A stretch of DNA of 40,134 nt from the NCBI GenBank assembly GCA_903906515.1, contig CAIVKO010000035.1, positions 1 through 40,134 on the forward strand, written 5' to 3'. This DNA is from Akkermansiaceae bacterium (GTDB lineage: Bacteria; Verrucomicrobiota; Verrucomicrobiia; Verrucomicrobiales; Akkermansiaceae). Shown here piece by piece: positions 8,966-15,955 of this stretch (positions are counted from its first letter, which is position 1; each line of letters opens with the position of its first letter). Both the position numbers and the translations under genes were made by a program. The notes beneath the pieces are model-generated. The model was not told where the DNA came from, searched no databases, and saw only the letters and a list, made by a program, of their open reading frames with translations.

Positions 8966-9997
8966 ATGCGCCACCTACTTCCCGAGAACCGCCCGGCCCT
9001 CGTGCTGGCACCAATGCAGGACGTCACGGACCTGCCGTTCATGCGGGTCATCGCGCGTCGTGGTGCGCCGGACTGGTTTGTCACCGAGTATTTCCGCGTT
9101 CACCCGGATTCCGTGCCGCATGCCTACATCCTGCGCTCGATCACCGAAAACCAAACCGGCACACCTGTCTTCGCCCAGATGATCGGGCGCGATTTACCCA
9201 GCTTGATCCGGACCGCCGGGAAACTTGCGCAGCTTCCCGTGGCGGGCATCGATCTCAACCTTGGCTGCCCTGCCCCGATCGTCTGTCGCAAGAATGCCGG
9301 CGGCGGACTACTGCGCGAACCCGCCGCGCTGGACCGGTTGTTAGGATCGCTGCGTGAGGCGATTCCCGGCACCTTCACGGTGAAGACCCGGATTGGATAC
9401 GCCGACGCCTCGGAGTTTCCCGCGCTGTTGGATGTTTTCCGCAAACACCACATCGACGGCCTCACCATCCACGGCCGCACGGTTGGAGAACGCTATCAAT
9501 CGCCGGTGCACGCGGACTGCGTGAGACTTGCTGTGGAATCGATGCCCTGCCCGGTGATCGCCAACGGCAATATCGTGGACACCGCCACCGGACTCGCGCT
9601 TCTTACGCAATCAGGAGCGGCAGGCTTGATGGTCGGACGTGGTGCCATCCGCAATCCATGGATTTTTTCACAGCTCCGATCGGTTTTTGATCAAACCCCG
9701 CCACCCGTTCCCACCCACAGGGATTTATTGGAATATGTGCTGGAGTTGTATGACGAGCTTGCCAGAGAATCCCGGAAACTCATCCCCCGGGCCCACGTCC
9801 AGCGTATGAAAAAAACCATGGCCTACATCACCCACGGCCTTGAGGACGGCGGATTCGAACACGCGATGCGCCGCGCCGTGACTCCGGACGATTTCTTCCG
9901 CATCTGCCGCGAGCATCTCGATCACGATAATCCGCTCCCAACTCTCCCGCCCGCCGGATCGAAGTTGTTCTGCGGATTTGAAGAATTGTTAGAATAG
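8966..9997 (+). CDS. dus: tRNA-dihydrouridine synthase
   Basis: A 343-residue FMN enzyme that reduces specific uridines in the tRNA D-loop. The TIM barrel opens with LVLAPMQDVTDLPFM. The family signature is NLGCPAPIVCRKNAGGGLL at 98-116, with catalytic Cys107. FMN and tRNA contact motifs follow: VKTRIGY, LTIHGRT, IANGNI and MVGRGAIRNPWIF. The C-terminal helical domain (RKLIPRAHVQRMKKTMAYI) is complete. It resembles the DusB/DusC branch, but the target position cannot be fixed by eye. The gene ends 6 bp from the end of convergent metH, with no room for separate terminators. Confidence 0.92.
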   Translation: MRHLLPENRPALVLAPMQDVTDLPFMRVIARRGAPDWFVTEYFRVHPDSVPHAYILRSITENQTGTPVFAQMIGRDLPSLIRTAGKLAQLPVAGIDLNLGCPAPIVCRKNAGGGLLREPAALDRLLGSLREAIPGTFTVKTRIGYADASEFPALLDVFRKHHIDGLTIHGRTVGERYQSPVHADCVRLAVESMPCPVIANGNIVDTATGLALLTQSGAAGLMVGRGAIRNPWIFSQLRSVFDQTPPPVPTHRDLLEYVLELYDELARESRKLIPRAHVQRMKKTMAYITHGLEDGGFEHAMRRAVTPDDFFRICREHLDHDNPLPTLPPAGSKLFCGFEELLE

Positions 9998-10003
9998 CAC
10001 GAA

Positions 10004-13000
10004 TCACACGGGATACCCGAGCCATGGCCCCAGCCATTTTTCGACTTCGGCCACGGTCATGCCCTTGCGGCGGGCGTAGTCCTCGATCTGGTCCTTCTGG
10101 AGTTCCGAGATCGCGAAATAATGGCTGTCGGGATGGGAGAAATACAACCCGCACACCGCGGCGCCGGGGTGCATGGCGCGGCTTTCCGTTAGCGTGACGC
10201 CGGTTTGTTCCGGAGCGCCCAGCAGATCGAAGAGCGTGGTTTTCTCGGTGTGGTCGGGCTGCGCCGGGTAACCCGGAGCCGGGCGGATACCCTGATAGTT
10301 CTCGTGAATGAGTTGGTCGCGAGTGAGTTCGTCCTCGGATTCGTAACCCCAGTCGATGCGCGCCTGGTGATGGAGTTTTTCCGCGAAGGCTTCCGCGAAC
10401 CGGTCGGCAATGGCCTTGACCATGATCGCGCCATAAGGATCGTGGGCCGCATCGAGTTCCGCGGCGAATTCATCCGCGCCATGGATGCCAACCACGAATG
10501 CGCCGATGTGGTCCGTGGCGGCGATCACCGGTCGCCGCTCTCCGTCACAGAATTTCCCTTCACCCACAAAATCCCAACCTTTCAATCCGGCCGTCTTCGG
10601 GTTTCTTAAAATATATGCCCGCTGGTTCCAGTAGTCGTCGGCATCACGAATGATGTGATCGTAGGACTCCTTCTGCCAAACCGCACCCTTGCCATCTGTT
10701 AGGCTATTGATTTTCTTAGATGACGCTGACTTGATGCCCTGCAGAATGGACGAAAGCGAATGCCCTTCCTTCGGTCGGATCACCAGATGGACGTGATTTG
10801 CCATCACGCACCAAGCTCCGAGGTAATACCGCTCACCGTCGTAATGCTGGAGTGCATCGCGGACAATGGCCGCGATTTCGGGACGCTTCATCAGGCAGGA
10901 GCCGTGTCCGGCATCCAACGCAAAATCCATGCGCTTGTGGTAATGATCGTTGAGTTCGCTCTTCAGTTGGATCGCCGTTTGGCTGTCACCAGAATCTTCA
11001 GCTTGTCGGATGCTGGCGAGCAGTTCGCTTTTCTCGGATTGATACTGCTTGAGAACGATCGCCGGCAGGGAATCTTCGAGTCGGAAGGTGACAGCGTATG
11101 TTGCGCCGTCCTGATGCCAGTGGGGGAGCCTTCCGGTGTCACATTTTTTGATGGAGTTCCGGGGATTCAGGAAGGTGGATTCGAAACTCTCTGACGATGG
11201 CGGCGGCGACCGATGATCGCCGCTACATGGCGGCGGCGACCGATGATCGCCGCTACATGGCGGCGGCGACCGATGATCGCCGCTACATGGAGCCACCCAG
11301 TCTGCCAGGGCGACGTTGGGTTTTTCCGTGTCCTTTTTGATTTGCTGGCGCAGGGCATGAAGGCGGGTGCGCTCTATCATCCGGGATTCATCCGTCCAAA
11401 CGATGATGTCATCGCCATCCGAGTTTGCCGGAAAAAACCCATACACGCCGCGTGCCTGGAATCGGTTTTCGGCGATGATGCGGTCGATCCATTCCAGCGC
11501 GTCATGATGGAGTTTCGCCGCCTCTGCGGCACCCTCCGGGTTTTTGGTTTTGAGGATGTGGTTGTCACGGTCCCACACGCCGCGCAGTTCCCACGCGTGG
11601 AAAAACGGTGTCCAGTCGATGTAGTCTACGAAATCCCTGAGGGAAGAGGCTCCGGGCAGAATGCCCGGGCCACCTGTGGCGCGGGCATTCTGCCCGCCGC
11701 CTTCTTCCTTGAAGTCACCCTTCCATTCCGTCTTGTGTCGCAGAATGTAAGCTCTCTGATTGCAAAAATCATCCATTCCACGGATCAAGTGATCGTATGA
11801 CTCCTGCTGCCAAAAACCTCCTTGCCGGCCTAGAATTTTGTTCGCCTCGCGTGCGGTGAACGATTTCCATGACTGGAGGATGTCATGCAATGAATGTTCT
11901 CCCAGTGGCCGGACAATCGCATGCACATGATTTGGCATCACGCACCATGTCAACAGGTCATACCTGTCTCCATCGAAATGTCCGAGCGATTCTGAAATCA
12001 TCCGGGCGATTTCGGGATTGCGAAGCCAGTCAGGACCATGGCCTTCTTCCAGTGATTTTTCAACAATCTCTTCGTAACAGTCCGTTTGGCGTTTTCTCGC
12101 ATCCTCTGCCAAAGCACTGTCACCTTTTGACAAAGCCAGTTGTTCGAGATCCTTCCATTGTTTTTTTTCGCCAAGATAGTTGTGAATCACCACTTGTGGA
12201 ATGGTATCCACAAGCCGGAAAGTCACCGCATAAGTCGCCTGCTCCTGTGTCCAATGAGGAAGGGTTCGCCGGGATTTATAGATATCGCGATTGTTTGAGA
12301 TGAACGTCGGTTGTTTGTGGGAAGAGGCTCCGGGCAGAATGCCCGGGCCACCGACGACGCGGATTCCTAAAAACGATGGCACAGGCGGAGTGTAACTGTC
12401 CCAATCAAACACCGGTGAGGTGGCACGCGCTTGTTCGAGCGTGAGCGTTTCCTTTTTCGGGCCTCCGGTGTAATTGTCGCGGAGGATCTTTTGTTTTGAT
12501 AGATTCTCTGCCACAAAGGTGTCGCGCTGGTCCTTGGAGAGCAGCGAGGTGGTCACCGGTACCGAACGTGAGGCGTCCAGCACATGCACGACCGGGCCTG
12601 AGTAATGTTCCGCGATCTTGATCGCGGTGTGCGCTGCGGAGGTGGTGGCCCCGCCGACCAACAAAGGAACCTTGAATCCCCGGCGCTCCATTTCCTTGGC
12701 GACATGCACCATCTCATCGAGCGACGGGGTGATCAAACCGGATAGACCGATCACATCCGCGCCGATCTCGATGGCTTTATCGAGGATCTTGTCACAGGGC
12801 ACCATGACACCCATGTCGGTGACTTCGAAGCCGTTGCAAGCGAGTACCACGCCGACGATATTCTTGCCGATGTCATGGACATCGCCCTTGACGGTGGCGA
12901 TGAGGAAACGCCCCGCCGATCGCCTTCTGCCCGCGAGAAGCAGTGCATCATCATCGCTGAGCGCGGGATTTTCCGCCATGATTTCGGCGATGTCGGATGC

Positions 13001-14230
13001 GAGAAACTCGGCTTTTTCCGCCTCCATGAACGGGGTGAGCCAAGCGACGGCCTTTTTCATCACACGGGCGGATTTCACCACCTGCGGCAGGAACATCTTG
13101 CCCGCGCCGAAAAGATCGCCGACCACGCCCATGCCATCCATCAGCGGGCCTTCGATCACCTTGAGTGGACGTCCGTATTTCAGACGCGCGGCTTCGGTGT
13201 CTTCATCGATGAATTTATCGATACCCTTGAGCAACGCGTGTTCAAGGCGTTTTTCCACGGGATCGTTTCGCCAGGAAAGATCCTCCTCGATGCGTTTGCC
13301 ATCCTGGCCCTTGAAGCGTCCGGCCAGATCTAACAATCTTTCGGTGGCGTCCGGTCGCCGGTTGAGCAGCACGTCCTCGACATGTTCGAGCAGTTCTTTG
13401 GGGATCTCGTCATAAACCTCCAACATGCCGGCGTTGACGATACCCATGTCCATCCCGGCCTGGCCCGCATGATAGAGGAAGGCCGAGTGCATCGCCTCGC
13501 GGACCACATTGTTGCCGCGGAACGAGAATGAGATGTTGGAGACACCGCCGGAAACCTTGGCTCCCGGCAGGTTCTGTTTGATCCAGCGGGTGGCGTTGAT
13601 GAAATCGAGGGCATAGTTGTTATGTTCCTCGATGCCGGTGGCCACGGTCAGCACGTTCGGATCGAAAATGATATCGTCCGGATTGAATCCGACCTCATCG
13701 ACGAGCAGGCGGTATGCGCGTTCGCAGATGCGGATTTTCTCATCATAACTCGATGCCTGGCCGTCTTCATCGAAGGCCATCACCACCACAGCCGCGCCGT
13801 AACGCATGATGTGGCGGGCGTGCTCCTTGAACACTTCCTCACCTTCCTTGAGCGAGATCGAGTTGACGATGCCCTTGCCCTGCAGGCACTTGAGCCCGGC
13901 TTCGAGGATTTCCCACTTCGAACTGTCCACCATGATCGGCACCTTGGCGACATCCGGCTCACCCTGGAGGAGTTGGAGGAAACGCGTCATCATCGCCTTG
14001 CCATCGATCAGTCCGTCGTCAAAGCAGATATCAATAACGTTAGCGCCATTGGCCACCTGTTGGCGTGCGACCTCGACGGCGGCTTCCAGATCACCGGCGC
14101 GGACCAGCTTGGCAAACTGCGGTGAGCCTGCGACGTTGGTGCGCTCGCCGATCATCAGGAAGCGCTTGTCGGAGGTGTGGTTATAGGCCTCGGATCCGGA
14201 GAGGCGCAGGGCATGGGGGATGGTTTTCAT
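10004..14230 (-). CDS. metH: B12-dependent methionine synthase, large part, with two in-frame RAYT insertions
   Basis: One uninterrupted frame of 1408 codons. Native MetH parts are: pterin domain from GERTNVAGS (28-36), cap and cobalamin domain with DVHDIG (450-455), [10 protein letters not shown] and LLVGGATTS, and the AdoMet reactivation domain from [15 protein letters not shown] (610-624). That domain resumes as [15 protein letters not shown] (870-884) and again as [10 protein letters not shown] (1239-1248), and contains [10 protein letters not shown]. Removing residues ~627-863 and ~982-1238 leaves about 914 residues, as expected for MetH without its homocysteine domain. The two inserts are complete transposase domains (separate entries) placed in loops of the reactivation domain. 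The homocysteine-binding domain is encoded by 14734-15846. It transfers methyl from methyl-THF via cobalamin to homocysteine. Whether the enlarged protein still works, or is processed, is unknown; the intact frame suggests selection for MetH. Confidence 0.93.
10516..10539. repeat. REP-like palindrome at the 3' border of the second metH insert
   Basis: ggcggcgatcac followed by cggtcgccgc forms a near-perfect palindrome. It is translated as ERRPVIAA just before native MetH resumes at TDHIGAF. It closely resembles the palindrome of the 30-bp tandem repeats at the other border (11201-11290), so the transposase domain is bracketed by its own repeat type. Confidence 0.75.
11201..11290. repeat. Three perfect 30-bp tandem REPs inside metH
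   Basis: Units 11201-11230, 11231-11260 and 11261-11290 are identical. On the minus strand each contains GTAG followed by the imperfect palindrome CGGCGATCATCGGTCGCCG, the head-plus-hairpin layout of REP elements served by RAYT transposases. The 30-bp length keeps the frame and encodes [10 protein letters not shown] three times (residues 982-1011). Confidence 0.92.
11642..11697. repeat. Head-to-head REP pair at the 3' border of the first metH insert
   Basis: On the minus strand GTGGCCCGGGCATTCTGCCC (head at 11673) and on the plus strand GTGGCGCGGGCATTCTGCCC (head at 11676) face each other with a 2-bp spacer, a minimal inverted REP pair. Bases 11642-11674 are identical over 33 bp to 12320-12352 at the other border. 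In the metH frame the pair reads [20 protein letters not shown]. Confidence 0.9.
12320..12352 (-). repeat. GTGG-type REP at the 5' border of the first metH insert
   Basis: Direct repeat of 11642-11674 (33/33 identical), containing the palindrome CCGGGCATTCTGCCCGG behind a GTGG head. It encodes [11 protein letters not shown] (residues 627-637). Confidence 0.9.
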
Positions 14231-14236
14231 TATATG

Positions 14237-14733
14237 ATCGAAACGCGGAGGCGCGGAGTTCGCAGAGAAAGACGCTGAGATTTATTGAGGGAAGTTGATG
14301 ACATGGCGTTTGATGCCATCCTTGAGAAGCGGGACATGAAAATTGATGAGCAGTCCGAGCGATTTGTCAGATAGTTTCATGTAGGTATGGAGTTGTGCTT
14401 CGTGAATCGGTAAAAGAGCCGTGACTGTCTTAAGCTCCACAACAATGGTTTCCTCAACCAGCAGGTCGATTCGATAGGCTTCTTCCTCCAAGATCTCGCC
14501 TTTGTAGATGACTTGGGCGGCAACCTGACGGCGTGAAGAAATACCACGAATCGAGAGTTCTTTTGCGAGCGACGCTTCATAAACCCGCTCCAACAATCCT
14601 GGCCCAAACTCACGATGCACTTCGATAGCGGAATCAATGATGATGCCGGACAATTTATTCAGTTCTTCTTTTGTTTTCATGTAATAATAACTCTGCGAAA
14701 ACCTCAGCGTCCTCTGCATCTCTGCGTTTCGAT
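14237..14733. mobile_element. GxxExxY-gene element with terminal inverted repeats, between the two metH genes
   Basis: The outer ends are ATCGAAACGC (reading inward from 14733 on the minus strand) and GCGTTTCGAT (to 14237), followed inward by imperfectly inverted sequence with GCAGAG/CTCTGC and CTGAG/CTCAG blocks. The 497-bp unit contains only the GxxExxY gene. It begins directly after the TGA of the homocysteine-domain gene (14734-14736) and ends 6 bp before the ATG of the large metH gene. Without it the two metH genes would be ~6 bp apart. No target duplication is evident. Confidence 0.7.
14282..14680 (-). CDS. GxxExxY family protein (PD-(D/E)XK nuclease-like)
   Basis: A 132-residue protein, MKTKEELNKLSGIIIDSAI onward, started at the ATG at 14680; a longer frame to 14821 runs back into metH and is rejected. 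It has the family-naming motif G-L-L-E-R-V-Y-E near residues 28-35. It also has a PD-(D/E)XK-like core, YRIDLLVEETIVVELKTV, with the D and E-x-K typical of nuclease folds, and ends in a typical ...HVINFP-like tail. The biochemical role of this family is not established. Members are common in Verrucomicrobiota and often sit between repeats like those seen here. It interrupts the metH operon and would be co-transcribed with it. Family certain, activity unknown. Confidence 0.88.
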   Translation of the reverse strand: MKTKEELNKLSGIIIDSAIEVHREFGPGLLERVYEASLAKELSIRGISSRRQVAAQVIYKGEILEEEAYRIDLLVEETIVVELKTVTALLPIHEAQLHTYMKLSDKSLGLLINFHVPLLKDGIKRHVINFPQ

Positions 14734-15846
14734 TCAGCCTATCACCGGCACTGGTCGTGGTTGTTTGCCTTTCACGGCCTGGGCGATGGCGGCGATGTGG
14801 TCCGGGGTGTTGCCGCAACATCCGCCGGCGAGGTTGAGCAATCCGGCATTGGCGAACTCCTCCATGAAATCGTGCATGTGGCGTGGTTCCAGATCAAAGC
14901 CGGTGGGGGCCAGCGGGTTGGGCAGTCCGGCATTCGGATAACAGGAAACGTGGGTGGTGGCGCACTCGGAGAGTTCTTCCAGATGCGGACGGATCAGGTC
15001 CGGGCCGAGCGAACAATTCAAGCCGATCGCCAACGGATGGGTGTGGGCGAAGGCATTCCAGAACGCCTCGATTTTTTGTGCCGAAATCATCGTCTCCCCA
15101 CCCCGGCCGACGGCGGCGGAGATGATGAGCGGAAATTGCAGCTTCATTTCCGCATACACTTCCTGCACCGCGACGGCGGCGGCTTTGGCATTGAGAGAAT
15201 CAAAGATGGTCTCGATCATCAGGATATCACAGCCGCCCTCGATGAGTGCGCGGATCTGGTGCTTGTAGGTTTCCAACACCTGATCAAATGTCACCACGCG
15301 GAAACCCGAGTCATTGGCATCCGGCGAGTTGCTGAGCGAAACCGTGAGAGGCCCGATCGCCCCGGCGACGTATCGTTTGCGACCGGTGTCCGTGCCGATG
15401 TCATCCGCCCACTTCCGGCACAGCCGGGAGGACTCGATATTCATTTCCCACGCCAGGTCGTTGAGGAATGGATCGGTGATGATTTTCTGATAGAAATCCG
15501 GATCCTTGCGACCGCCGGTTTCACGCGGGTCATCCACGAAGAACTCGCTCTGGGCGATGCTGGTGGCGGAGAAGGTGTTGGTTTCACAGATATCGGATCC
15601 CGCCTCGTAGAAGCGTTTGTGGATGTCTCCGATGATGTCCGGGCGGGTGATGGTGAGGATGTCGCCGTTGTTGAGCAGATCCTTGTCATTGTCCGCGTAT
15701 CGGCTGCTGCGCGCGTCCTGCTCATTCAGCCCGTATGAGCGGATGGTGGTGCCCATCGCCCCATCGAGGACGAGGATGCGCTCGGCGAGCGCTTGCTTGA
15801 GTTCAGGGGTGCTATCGGCTTGCGGCATGGGCACAGTGTATGACAT
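14734..15846 (-). CDS. metH: Methionine synthase homocysteine-binding subunit
   Basis: A 370-residue protein equal to the N-terminal domain of MetH. It opens ERILVLDGAMGTTIRSYGL and has CETNTFSA (87-94), AGAIGPLT and the zinc-thiolate ligands C278 (GLNCSLG) and C343-C344 (GGCCGNTP), which activate homocysteine. It ends at the exact domain border before the pterin domain, so MetH is split into two genes here, separated only by the GxxExxY element. Both pieces must assemble, or act in trans, to make methionine. The ATG at 15846 is used; MPQADS at 15828 is an alternative. A 14-bp palindrome lies 29 bp upstream of the start. Confidence 0.93.
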   Translation of the reverse strand: MSYTVPMPQADSTPELKQALAERILVLDGAMGTTIRSYGLNEQDARSSRYADNDKDLLNNGDILTITRPDIIGDIHKRFYEAGSDICETNTFSATSIAQSEFFVDDPRETGGRKDPDFYQKIITDPFLNDLAWEMNIESSRLCRKWADDIGTDTGRKRYVAGAIGPLTVSLSNSPDANDSGFRVVTFDQVLETYKHQIRALIEGGCDILMIETIFDSLNAKAAAVAVQEVYAEMKLQFPLIISAAVGRGGETMISAQKIEAFWNAFAHTHPLAIGLNCSLGPDLIRPHLEELSECATTHVSCYPNAGLPNPLAPTGFDLEPRHMHDFMEEFANAGLLNLAGGCCGNTPDHIAAIAQAVKGKQPRPVPVIG

Positions 15847-15874
15847 TTGGTCATGGCATCAAGAAACAAATCGT

Positions 15875-15888
15875 CATATCTGGATATG
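15875..15888. promoter_or_regulatory. Palindrome upstream of the metH operon (candidate operator)
   Basis: CATATC-TG-GATATG is a perfect inverted repeat apart from its 2-bp centre, centred about 35 bp before the first metH ATG. Its position suits a repressor site. An ArsR-type methionine-cycle regulator such as SahR is one possible reader, but I cannot confirm the motif. No SAM or cobalamin riboswitch fold was recognised in this leader. Confidence 0.4.
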
Positions 15889-15955
15889 TTGATGCGATTT
15901 TTAAAAGCCAGGCATGGTTGCCATGTGCAGGGCCGACGCATCAAAATAGGATTCA

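Follow-up and report, generated by a model that had tools for sequence, protein, structure and literature searches.

The methionine synthase locus

The window, by which we mean the whole 40,134-nucleotide stretch of DNA analysed here, carries on its minus strand an open frame of 1408 codons without a stop (14230 to 10004). The encoded chain of 1408 amino acids comprises the C-terminal part of methionine synthase (MetH), with its pterin, B12 and activation domains, together with two nested RAYTs. RAYTs are REP-associated tyrosine transposases of the TnpA-Y1 superfamily (PMC3733652, PMC6006769). Pfam matches on the chain were Pterin_bind, B12-binding_2, B12-binding, Met_synt_B12 in two stretches and Y1_Tnp, above its cut-off, also in two, and the whole chain matched the NCBIfam metH model (TIGR02082) above its cut-off. 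An earlier, sequence-only reading of this DNA had proposed a 1408-codon MetH frame with two in-frame RAYT domains at residues 627-863 and 982-1238; the open frame, Pfam and NCBIfam confirm this, and because comparison with insert-free relatives places the native parts at residues ∼1-627, 864-981 and 1239-1408, the proposed borders were right to within a few residues. The homocysteine S-methyltransferase domain is encoded by a separate ORF, the N-terminal part of metH (14734-15846, minus strand). metH is accordingly split over two ORFs in the window with a GxxExxY gene between them, an arrangement absent from the earlier reading.

The segments of the frame follow one another on the minus strand. 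Native MetH residues 1-627, comprising the pterin and B12 domains and delimited by comparison with insert-free relatives, occupy 12350-14230. Insert 1 (11642-12349; 708 nt, ∼residues 628-863, border ± a few codons) has the order REP, RAYT 1 (11708-12307), REP pair, and lies in the linker between the B12 and activation domains. The first part of the activation domain (residues 864-981; 11288-11641) and its remainder (residues 1239-1408; 10007-10516), both aligned with insert-free relatives, are separated by insert 2 (10518-11282; ∼765 nt, border taken from the empty allele of genome G007), which is composed of three tandem REPs, RAYT 2 (10568-11188) and an inverted REP and falls in a loop of that domain.

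At its 5' end insert 1 has a REP copy (REP1; 12326-12349, minus strand) that is translated as GPGILPGA. A second REP1 copy at the 3' end (11648-11671, minus strand) has an inverted partner on the plus strand (11678-11701, 3 mismatches), with which it forms a REPIN-like pair. Insert 2 begins with three in-frame REP2 copies, GTAGCGGCGATCATCGGTCGCCGC, arranged as 30-nt units (11203-11286, minus strand), and an inverted REP2 copy with 2 mismatches marks its 3' border (10515-10538, plus strand). The inverted REPs that flank the transposases are also dispersed in the window's genome, the one in which dispersal was examined: allowing up to 3 mismatches and including the window copies, we counted 33 copies of REP1 and 14 of REP2, and reversed control patterns gave 0.

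The chain as a whole scored 123.2 bits against the NCBIfam model REP_Tyr_transpos (NF047646; cut-off 80), RAYT 2 alone 80.2 and RAYT 1 alone 55.7. The HUH pairs named by the sequence-only reading, H768/H770 in RAYT 1 and H1146/H1148 in RAYT 2, are borne out, and the His-x-His motif is kept in all 98 nested RAYTs that we collected (see below). Its choice of Y812 and Y1190 as catalytic tyrosines was mistaken. These residues sit in an ESYDH motif whose tyrosine is replaced in 32 of the 97 nested RAYTs and in 23 of the 26 stand-alone ones, and we rejected them in favour of Y828 and Y1206, the tyrosines of AYILR, which align with Y115 of E. coli TnpA-REP (PDB 4ER8) and are conserved in 96 of 97 nested copies (a single one lacks it) and in 26 of 26 stand-alone copies. 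The nested copies thus have the HUH motif and one catalytic tyrosine in a Y1 fold, matching 4ER8 by sequence and by fold, and differ from the RAYT class in not being stand-alone genes with their own start and stop.

Extent, sites and empty alleles

A RAYT match was present in 68 of the 73 genomes of the genus, the window's own included. The 64 best matches listed, counted by hand, all lay in frames of at least 425 amino acids and ranked before the first stand-alone copy. The search for other genes with in-frame RAYTs, which the earlier reading had advised, yielded many: the 95 frames that we fetched hold 98 RAYTs in 11 host groups, named from the Pfam matches of representatives, among them IspG (36 frames), MetH (25), leucyl-tRNA synthetase (LeuRS; 18), HsdR (6) and CarB (5). 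One of the 98, L164, is a doubtful member, since its RAYT stands at the end of a frame with no host domain by Pfam and may be a stand-alone gene. The window's genome itself has a related RAYT in frame inside ispG. Pfam host domains flank the RAYT on both sides in CarB, HsdR, DUF5107/TPR, ValRS, Sua5, L139, L333 and L322, and on one side only in L149, L144, L153, L305, L300 and L294. Most genomes compared are draft assemblies or MAGs; isolates carry nested RAYTs too, for example the cultured Roseibacillus persicicus KCTC 12988, whose MetH-RAYT frame (L266) encodes 1180 aa. Related nested copies occur beyond the order, in Sua5 of Chthoniobacterales records, and in records from other phyla, in valyl-tRNA synthetase (Phycisphaerae/Planctomycetes) and CarB (Armatimonadetes). 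A chance long frame in GC-rich DNA was rejected for MetH, IspG and LeuRS because host sequence can be aligned to the left and to the right of the RAYT and alignments with empty relatives run through the insertion point.

Insert ends were compared among the 93 inserts with complete flanks (L096, L131, L154, L164 and L165 lacked full flanks). An exact terminal inverted repeat of at least 12 nt was found in 72 of them, as against 2 of 1860 letter shuffles. Hairpins tagged with GTAG/GTGG were detected in 2 of 17 LeuRS, 0 of 4 HsdR and 2 of 5 CarB inserts, so the tag rule is not universal.

In a RAYT tree that sampled 26 stand-alone copies, the 12 gene/site labels required 14 changes, compared with 73.6 in shuffles. 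IspG site 1 formed one clade of 35, MetH site 1 a clade of 4 and MetH site 2 one clade of 23 (support 88, not starred); the LeuRS RAYTs fell into three clades, not one. Inserts 1 and 2 of the window belong to different clades, which supports the view that they record two independent events.

Empty sites were found in the metH genes of close relatives, where a comparison had been suggested. For the IspG site, a hand tally of the 73 genomes gave 36 filled (7 cut by a contig end), 31 empty and 6 undecided (G010, G020, G064, G025, G024 and G094). The LeuRS of G060, which is outside the fetched frames, also looks filled. On a 37-row host tree the filled or empty state of MetH site 2 requires at least 9 changes, 5 of them forced by starred branches; the scatter is weakly below chance (25 of 500 shuffles were as low) and cannot by itself separate gain from loss. 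G007 is empty at MetH, IspG and LeuRS and its sister G070 is filled at all three. Read by eye from GTAG to CAC, the metH insert of G070 is 741 nt long; an overlap of 16 nt between the two alignments made the automatic border come out at 743 nt. Insert lengths from the LeuRS and IspG comparisons were 627, 627, 738 and 708 nt, all multiples of three. At some insert sites we observed alleles with only an in-frame REP scar, which suggests that extra in-frame residues are tolerated there. Like inteins, the inserts lie in frame in conserved genes, each at a fixed site, have empty alleles and spread horizontally.

Proposed passenger domains and competing explanations

The explanation that we favour, with a probability of about 0.85 on comparative sequence evidence, is that RAYT-REP mobile elements live as translated, unspliced passenger domains in host proteins and spread in the fashion of inteins. 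The inserts would be a family of REP - HUH/Tyr transposase - REP elements resident in host proteins, each keeping the host frame, having no start or stop of its own and being translated as an internal host domain, with its palindromic REP ends read as short linkers. They would occupy fixed sites, mostly linkers and loops of housekeeping enzymes, where selection on the host would remove frame-breaking copies. Besides being inherited, copies would move to other species, entering the same gene at the same site, and would disappear again, in some cases with an in-frame REP scar left behind. The host protein would work with the RAYT domain looped out, the fused transposase would be active on its REPs, and spread could rely on HUH chemistry acting on the GTAG/GTGG end of the REP, on recombination via short stretches of flanking host sequence, or on both. 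A frame-preserving passenger domain, intein-like but without splicing, was what the sequence-only reading had envisaged, and it is favoured by the filled and empty alleles and the gene/site clades, with further support from horizontal sharing in some pairs, purifying selection on host and insert, and the lack of a splicing domain or Rfam match. Sequence comparison establishes the position and frame of the inserts, their REP ends, the site clades and empty alleles, the constraint on both host and insert and, in several pairs, horizontal sharing. That these elements constitute a new class, in which autonomous HUH transposases home unspliced into fixed sites of essential proteins and are permanently translated from the host promoter, we consider probable, with less assurance.

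The clearest sign of transfer comes from the metH genes of two species (L102 and L103), in which the RAYTs show a synonymous difference of 0 over 208 codons and the host gene 0.647. The identical tract of 733 nt consists of the insert and short host-gene flanks of ∼20 nt and 42 nt. The public records that match these two (L288 and L286) differ in accession series and isolate names. In three other close pairs RAYT and host are about equally diverged (synonymous differences of 0.395 and 0.409 in L108/L113, 0.450 and 0.402 in L078/L082, and 0.574 and 0.406 in L132/L135), as expected from ordinary vertical descent. In Verrucomicrobia-type bacteria, nested RAYTs seem to move from species to species and to settle at the same sites, in the manner of inteins.

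The extension of the L102/L103 tract into the host gene is what recombination or gene conversion predicts, and it is possible, if the less probable course, that ordinary homologous recombination of host segments spreads the inserts with the RAYT as passive cargo whose catalysis is irrelevant. The weaker constraint on the RAYT agrees with this: median dN/dS was 0.24 for MetH2, 0.27 for IspG1 and 0.18 for LeuRS RAYTs (45, 193 and 15 unsaturated pairs), above the host medians of 0.09-0.13, and some nested copies may therefore be decaying. Yet values of 0.18-0.27, the HUH pair kept in 98 of 98 copies and the tyrosine in 96 of 97 speak against mere cargo, the identical tract hugs the insert and includes no long host stretches, and cognate REPs are dispersed in the genome.

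Purifying selection on the RAYT domain, and the repeated occupation of the same genes across genus and order, could also mean that a domesticated RAYT benefits the host enzyme, through regulation or DNA contact, and is kept for that reason. We judge this improbable, given the patchy presence of the insert with near relatives empty (G007 empty, its sister G070 filled), the unrelated functions of the host proteins and the horizontal sharing.

In-frame, site-specific spread over housekeeping genes is the pattern of inteins, and an unrecognised splicing activity might remove the insert from RNA or protein to leave an insert-free enzyme. This is very doubtful. The 1408-residue chain gave no Pfam or NCBIfam match to a splicing (Hint) domain at E up to 0.001, Rfam, introns (group I/II) included, gave no match up to E 1 in 9990-15900, the insert consists of REP-RAYT-REP only, and the REP-scar alleles suggest that additional residues can be tolerated.

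Structure prediction, another of the earlier suggestions, gave a weak model for the window chain (mean pLDDT 65, pTM 0.37) and a moderate one for the MetH-RAYT chain of R. persicicus (mean pLDDT 69.5, pTM 0.53). In Foldseek comparisons the target TM against the MetH activation domain 1MSK was 0.74 (R. persicicus) and 0.55 (window), and against 4ER8 0.62 and 0.58, respectively. In the R. persicicus model, which is of moderate quality, MetH activation and RAYT folds are predicted to coexist in one chain. The sequence-only reading had noticed no evident start or stop for the RAYT domains, and this is supported: an in-frame ATG within 40 codons before LPHW was present in 16 of the 97 nested RAYTs (L131 left out), as against 23 of the 26 stand-alone ones, which disfavours independent translation of the nested RAYTs. 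ATG/GTG with a Shine-Dalgarno-like stretch was found in 9 of 97 nested and 3 of 26 stand-alone copies, a non-discriminating test that we did not use.

A genome search found no second metH in the window's genome, and metE (PF01717) was likewise not found in this 96% complete assembly, the control search being positive in 10 of 14 genomes. Native MetH had dN/dS of 0.04-0.10 in pairs with the window gene, indicating purifying selection (one saturated pair, printed as 0.000, is uninformative), and among 8 genomes compared the activation domain was equally constrained in filled and empty alleles. An assembly artefact, or a decaying pseudogene with an intact copy elsewhere, is scarcely credible: the window's genome is in 265 contigs, but the nested arrangement recurs in G004 (MetH) and G059 (IspG), each assembled as a single contig, and in L266, L264 and L309, whose records do not bear MAG in the title, and the pseudogene or second-copy reading is rejected by the missing second metH and metE and by dN/dS values far below 1.

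Relation to known systems

Inteins, which splice themselves out, are the textbook route for a selfish element inside an essential protein, and those with homing endonucleases lie in frame in conserved genes, each at its fixed site, have filled as well as empty alleles and spread horizontally. Nested RAYTs resemble them in all these respects and in forming, for the most part, a single clade at each site; they differ in that no splicing domain was found, an HUH transposase takes the place of the nuclease and the domain presumably stays in the protein. Rickettsia palindromic elements, which are mentioned in PMC3733652, are palindromic repeats in frame inside genes. They carry no transposase, whereas the palindromes of the nested RAYTs enclose a complete one; the REP-only scars resemble these elements. 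ShiLan, in a phage DNA methylase, is a non-splicing homing insertion that introduces no stop in the host frame and is predicted to loop out; its HNH nuclease is read in a different frame from a GTG start of its own, and the phage gene is non-essential according to the authors (PMC11855218). In contrast to ShiLan as presented there, the nested RAYT transposase shares the reading frame of its host, a cellular housekeeping gene. With RAYT/REPtron genes (PMC3733652, PMC6006769), the nested copies share the HUH motif and single tyrosine, the matches to REP_Tyr_transpos (the whole chain and RAYT 2) and to 4ER8, inverted palindromes on either side, which carry GTAG/GTGG tags in IspG and MetH, and dispersed REPs; unlike those genes, they are not stand-alone, are predicted to be translated inside host enzymes and form site-specific families, some horizontally shared. 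A literature search of open PubMed Central, bioRxiv excluded, brought up no account of RAYTs lying in frame within host genes.

Nested RAYTs appear to occupy essential proteins without splicing, the transposase folding as a passenger domain, and this lifestyle would suggest how a RAYT gets expressed and spreads. MetH, IspG and LeuRS, with their empty as well as filled alleles, offer natural experiments in domain insertion, and the existence of a cultured carrier makes nested RAYTs open to testing now. For annotation they are a warning that an enzyme name can hide a mobile element.

Elements of the IS200/IS605 family have a stand-alone tnpA and insert 3' of a fixed tetranucleotide without target duplication. 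Nested RAYTs share their Y1 HUH fold; the family differs in its stand-alone tnpA and in not being known for frame-preserving passengers. Most LeuRS ends are untagged, and the G007/G070 metH comparison fits insertion beside a tetranucleotide without target duplication. The site-2 GTAG is present in the empty G007 allele and missing from the other empty metH site-2 alleles compared, so that in G007 it may be a footprint of excision rather than the target.

The methionine synthase frame and its two inserts

The C-terminal part of metH lies on the minus strand (14230..10004) in an open frame of 1408 residues without a stop, and two RAYTs (REP-associated tyrosine transposases) are nested in it. The sequence-only reading had described MetH as interrupted by two RAYT domains within this 1408-codon frame, and the open frame, Pfam and NCBIfam all confirm it. 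In Pfam the chain matched the methionine synthase pterin and B12 domains, the activation domain split in two stretches, and two IS200-like Y1 transposase domains; NCBIfam labeled it both metH and REP-associated tyrosine transposase. By alignment to insert-free relatives, native MetH comprises residues about 1-627, 864-981 and 1239-1408; insert 1 occupies the linker joining the B12 and activation domains and insert 2 a loop within the activation domain. Neither metE nor a second intact metH, a possibility raised by the sequence-only reading, was found in the window's genome (96% complete).

A separate ORF (14734-15846) encodes the homocysteine-binding part, and a GxxExxY gene (14282-14710, minus strand) separates the two metH ORFs. 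Inverted repeats, ATCGAAACGCAGAG... and ...CGTTTCGAT, flank this gene (at about 14734 and 14250), and it has the look of a further small mobile unit. The C-part is a separate ORF of about 930 aa in many genomes of the same genus, and frames of about 1250 aa occur in several other families.

Insert 1 carries the palindrome GGCCCGGGCATTCTGCCCGGAGCC (REP1) at both start and end. This sequence has 33 copies in the genome (at most 3 mismatches, window copies included; reversed control 0), several of them in inverted pairs about 30 bp apart, and REPINs are likewise inverted REP pairs. Insert 2 begins with three tandem GTAGCGGCGATCATCGGTCGCCGC units (REP2; 14 genome copies, control 0) and ends with one inverted copy. 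The reading frame runs on through the REP copies of both inserts. The HUH pairs are those reported previously, H768/H770 in the first RAYT and H1146/H1148 in the second. The catalytic tyrosines had been placed at Y812 and Y1190; alignment with TnpA-REP (PDB 4ER8), whose Y115 we take to be catalytic, instead predicts Y828 and Y1206. Elsewhere in the window's genome, a REP2-like copy (G000:C12:14145-14168) inside a range matched as the leucyl-tRNA synthetase C-part could be a REP that sits in frame with no RAYT beside it.

Host enzymes and site-specific families

Seven Y1_Tnp matches were found in the window's genome and, besides the window's two, only the copy on contig C129, nested in frame in ispG, closely resembles the window RAYTs (49% identity). 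Of 73 congeneric genomes, counting the window's own, 68 matched a profile built from these three RAYTs. By hand count, the best 64 matches listed were all in frames of at least 425 aa, and the first stand-alone copy ranked below them. We collected 95 long frames with 98 RAYTs, some ending at contig ends and one (L164) doubtful, and named their hosts by clustering and Pfam analysis of representatives. The hosts were IspG (36), MetH (25), leucyl-tRNA synthetase (LeuRS; 18), type I restriction R subunits (6) and CarB (5), with single cases of DUF5107/TPR, adenosine-deaminase-like, Eco57I, DUF1156 and unknown proteins. RAYT matches were present in 255 of 386 genomes sampled from the order and 208 of 387 from the phylum, many of the best matches listed again being in long frames. 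Among the matches listed from a public genome collection, which overlaps these genomes, 60 of 80 loci had frames of at least 500 aa. Records not titled as MAGs include Roseibacillus persicicus KCTC 12988 (RAYT in MetH) and Verrucomicrobiaceae bacterium E54 (RAYTs in IspG and DUF5107). In public records of other groups the hosts were valyl-tRNA synthetase, Sua5, CarB and DNA methylases; the records with in-frame RAYTs in the first three (L282, L298, L318, L267, L287, L333) are from outside the order. Two RAYTs in one gene were also seen at sites 1 and 2 of IspG in genome G075 and of MetH in G085 (L124, L074), the latter being the same double arrangement as in the window.

On a tree of the 98 nested and 26 sampled stand-alone RAYT domains, 12 labels required 14 changes, compared with 73.6 in shuffles. 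Clades with support of at least 98 corresponded to IspG site 1 (35 rows), IspG site 2 (2), MetH site 1 (4), CarB (5) and both HsdR groups; MetH site 2 (23 rows) formed one clade with support of 88, and the LeuRS RAYTs formed three. None of the 26 sampled stand-alone copies fell inside these site clades. Since their site-specific clades differ, the window's two RAYTs belong to different families, in agreement with the earlier proposal of two independent events. There are two insertion points in MetH, two in IspG, whose borders vary by some 20 residues within a variable linker, and about one in LeuRS.

Probable gain, spread and loss

The clearest case of mobility is metH of genomes G015 and G017, where synonymous divergence is 0 over 208 RAYT codons but 65% in the host codons. 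The two genes are identical over 733 nt, a stretch that covers the insert and reaches about 20 and 42 nt into the host gene, and the corresponding records (L288 and L286) differ in accession series and isolate names. Weaker cases are L093/L094 (RAYT 0.066, host 0.399), L079/L083 in IspG (0.10, 0.42) and L154/L156 in LeuRS (0.024, 0.155). In other close pairs (L108/L113, L078/L082) RAYT and host diverged equally, as in vertical descent. The MetH site-2 state changed at least 9 times on a 37-row MetH N-region tree, where well-supported branches require 5 of the changes; counts as low arose in 25 of 500 shuffles.

By hand tally, 36 of the 73 genomes have a filled IspG (truncated at a contig end in 7 of them), 31 have an empty one and 6 were left unassigned. 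Of two sister genomes, G007 is empty and G070 filled at all of MetH, IspG and LeuRS, at 90-94% DNA identity. At MetH site 2, CCCTGTAG is followed directly by CAC in G007 and by REP...REP and then CAC in G070, with no target duplication in this comparison. IS200/IS605-type insertion also lacks target duplication, and the pattern is as expected from such insertion or from excision leaving GTAG; GTAG is absent from the other empty MetH site-2 alleles compared. Some empty alleles retain in-frame REP remnants (LeuRS and IspG of G007, MetH site 1 of G006; L030, L180, L227), as if the transposase had been lost and its ends left behind. Among 93 inserts with full flanks, 72 carried exact inverted repeats of 12 nt or longer at their ends, versus 2 of 1860 shuffles, and a GTAG/GTGG-tagged hairpin marked either end of 34/34 IspG and 25/27 MetH but only 2/17 LeuRS inserts.

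Most likely, and here we infer tolerance, activity and route of spread alike, the element would enter a tolerated host site in frame, by insertion or recombination, and the frame would be kept open by the host's need for the enzyme. The transposase would then be produced whenever the host enzyme is, and could act on its own REP ends and in trans on other REPs.

Comparison with known systems, selection and fold

The RAYT protein family and REP ends are already known; the lifestyle inside host enzymes is not. Nested copies share RAYT sequence and REP ends with RAYTs but are not stand-alone genes. They behave like inteins, as had been suggested, but without a detectable splicing domain: Pfam and NCBIfam gave no such match in the window chain, nor Rfam an intron at the locus. 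We found no report of nested RAYTs in the open PubMed Central literature (without bioRxiv and most subscription papers). The nearest published behavior found is that of the ShiLan element, whose HNH nuclease is out of the host frame (PMC11855218). A Y1 superfamily survey of 924 proteins put aside small clusters whose best domains were unrelated to Y1, and nested copies may have been among these.

In three site families, median dN/dS was 0.24, 0.27 and 0.18 for the nested RAYTs and 0.09, 0.13 and 0.11 for the corresponding host parts. The MetH activation domain is equally constrained in filled and empty alleles (8 genomes compared). Relaxed selection on native MetH (dN/dS near 1), also considered in the sequence-only reading, was not seen in unsaturated pairs with the window metH, which gave 0.04-0.10. 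Of two predicted chain structures, the window's was weaker than that of R. persicicus (pLDDT 69.5); in the latter model the host portion matches the MetH activation domain 1MSK across the insert (target TM 0.74), and the insert itself matches 4ER8 (0.62).
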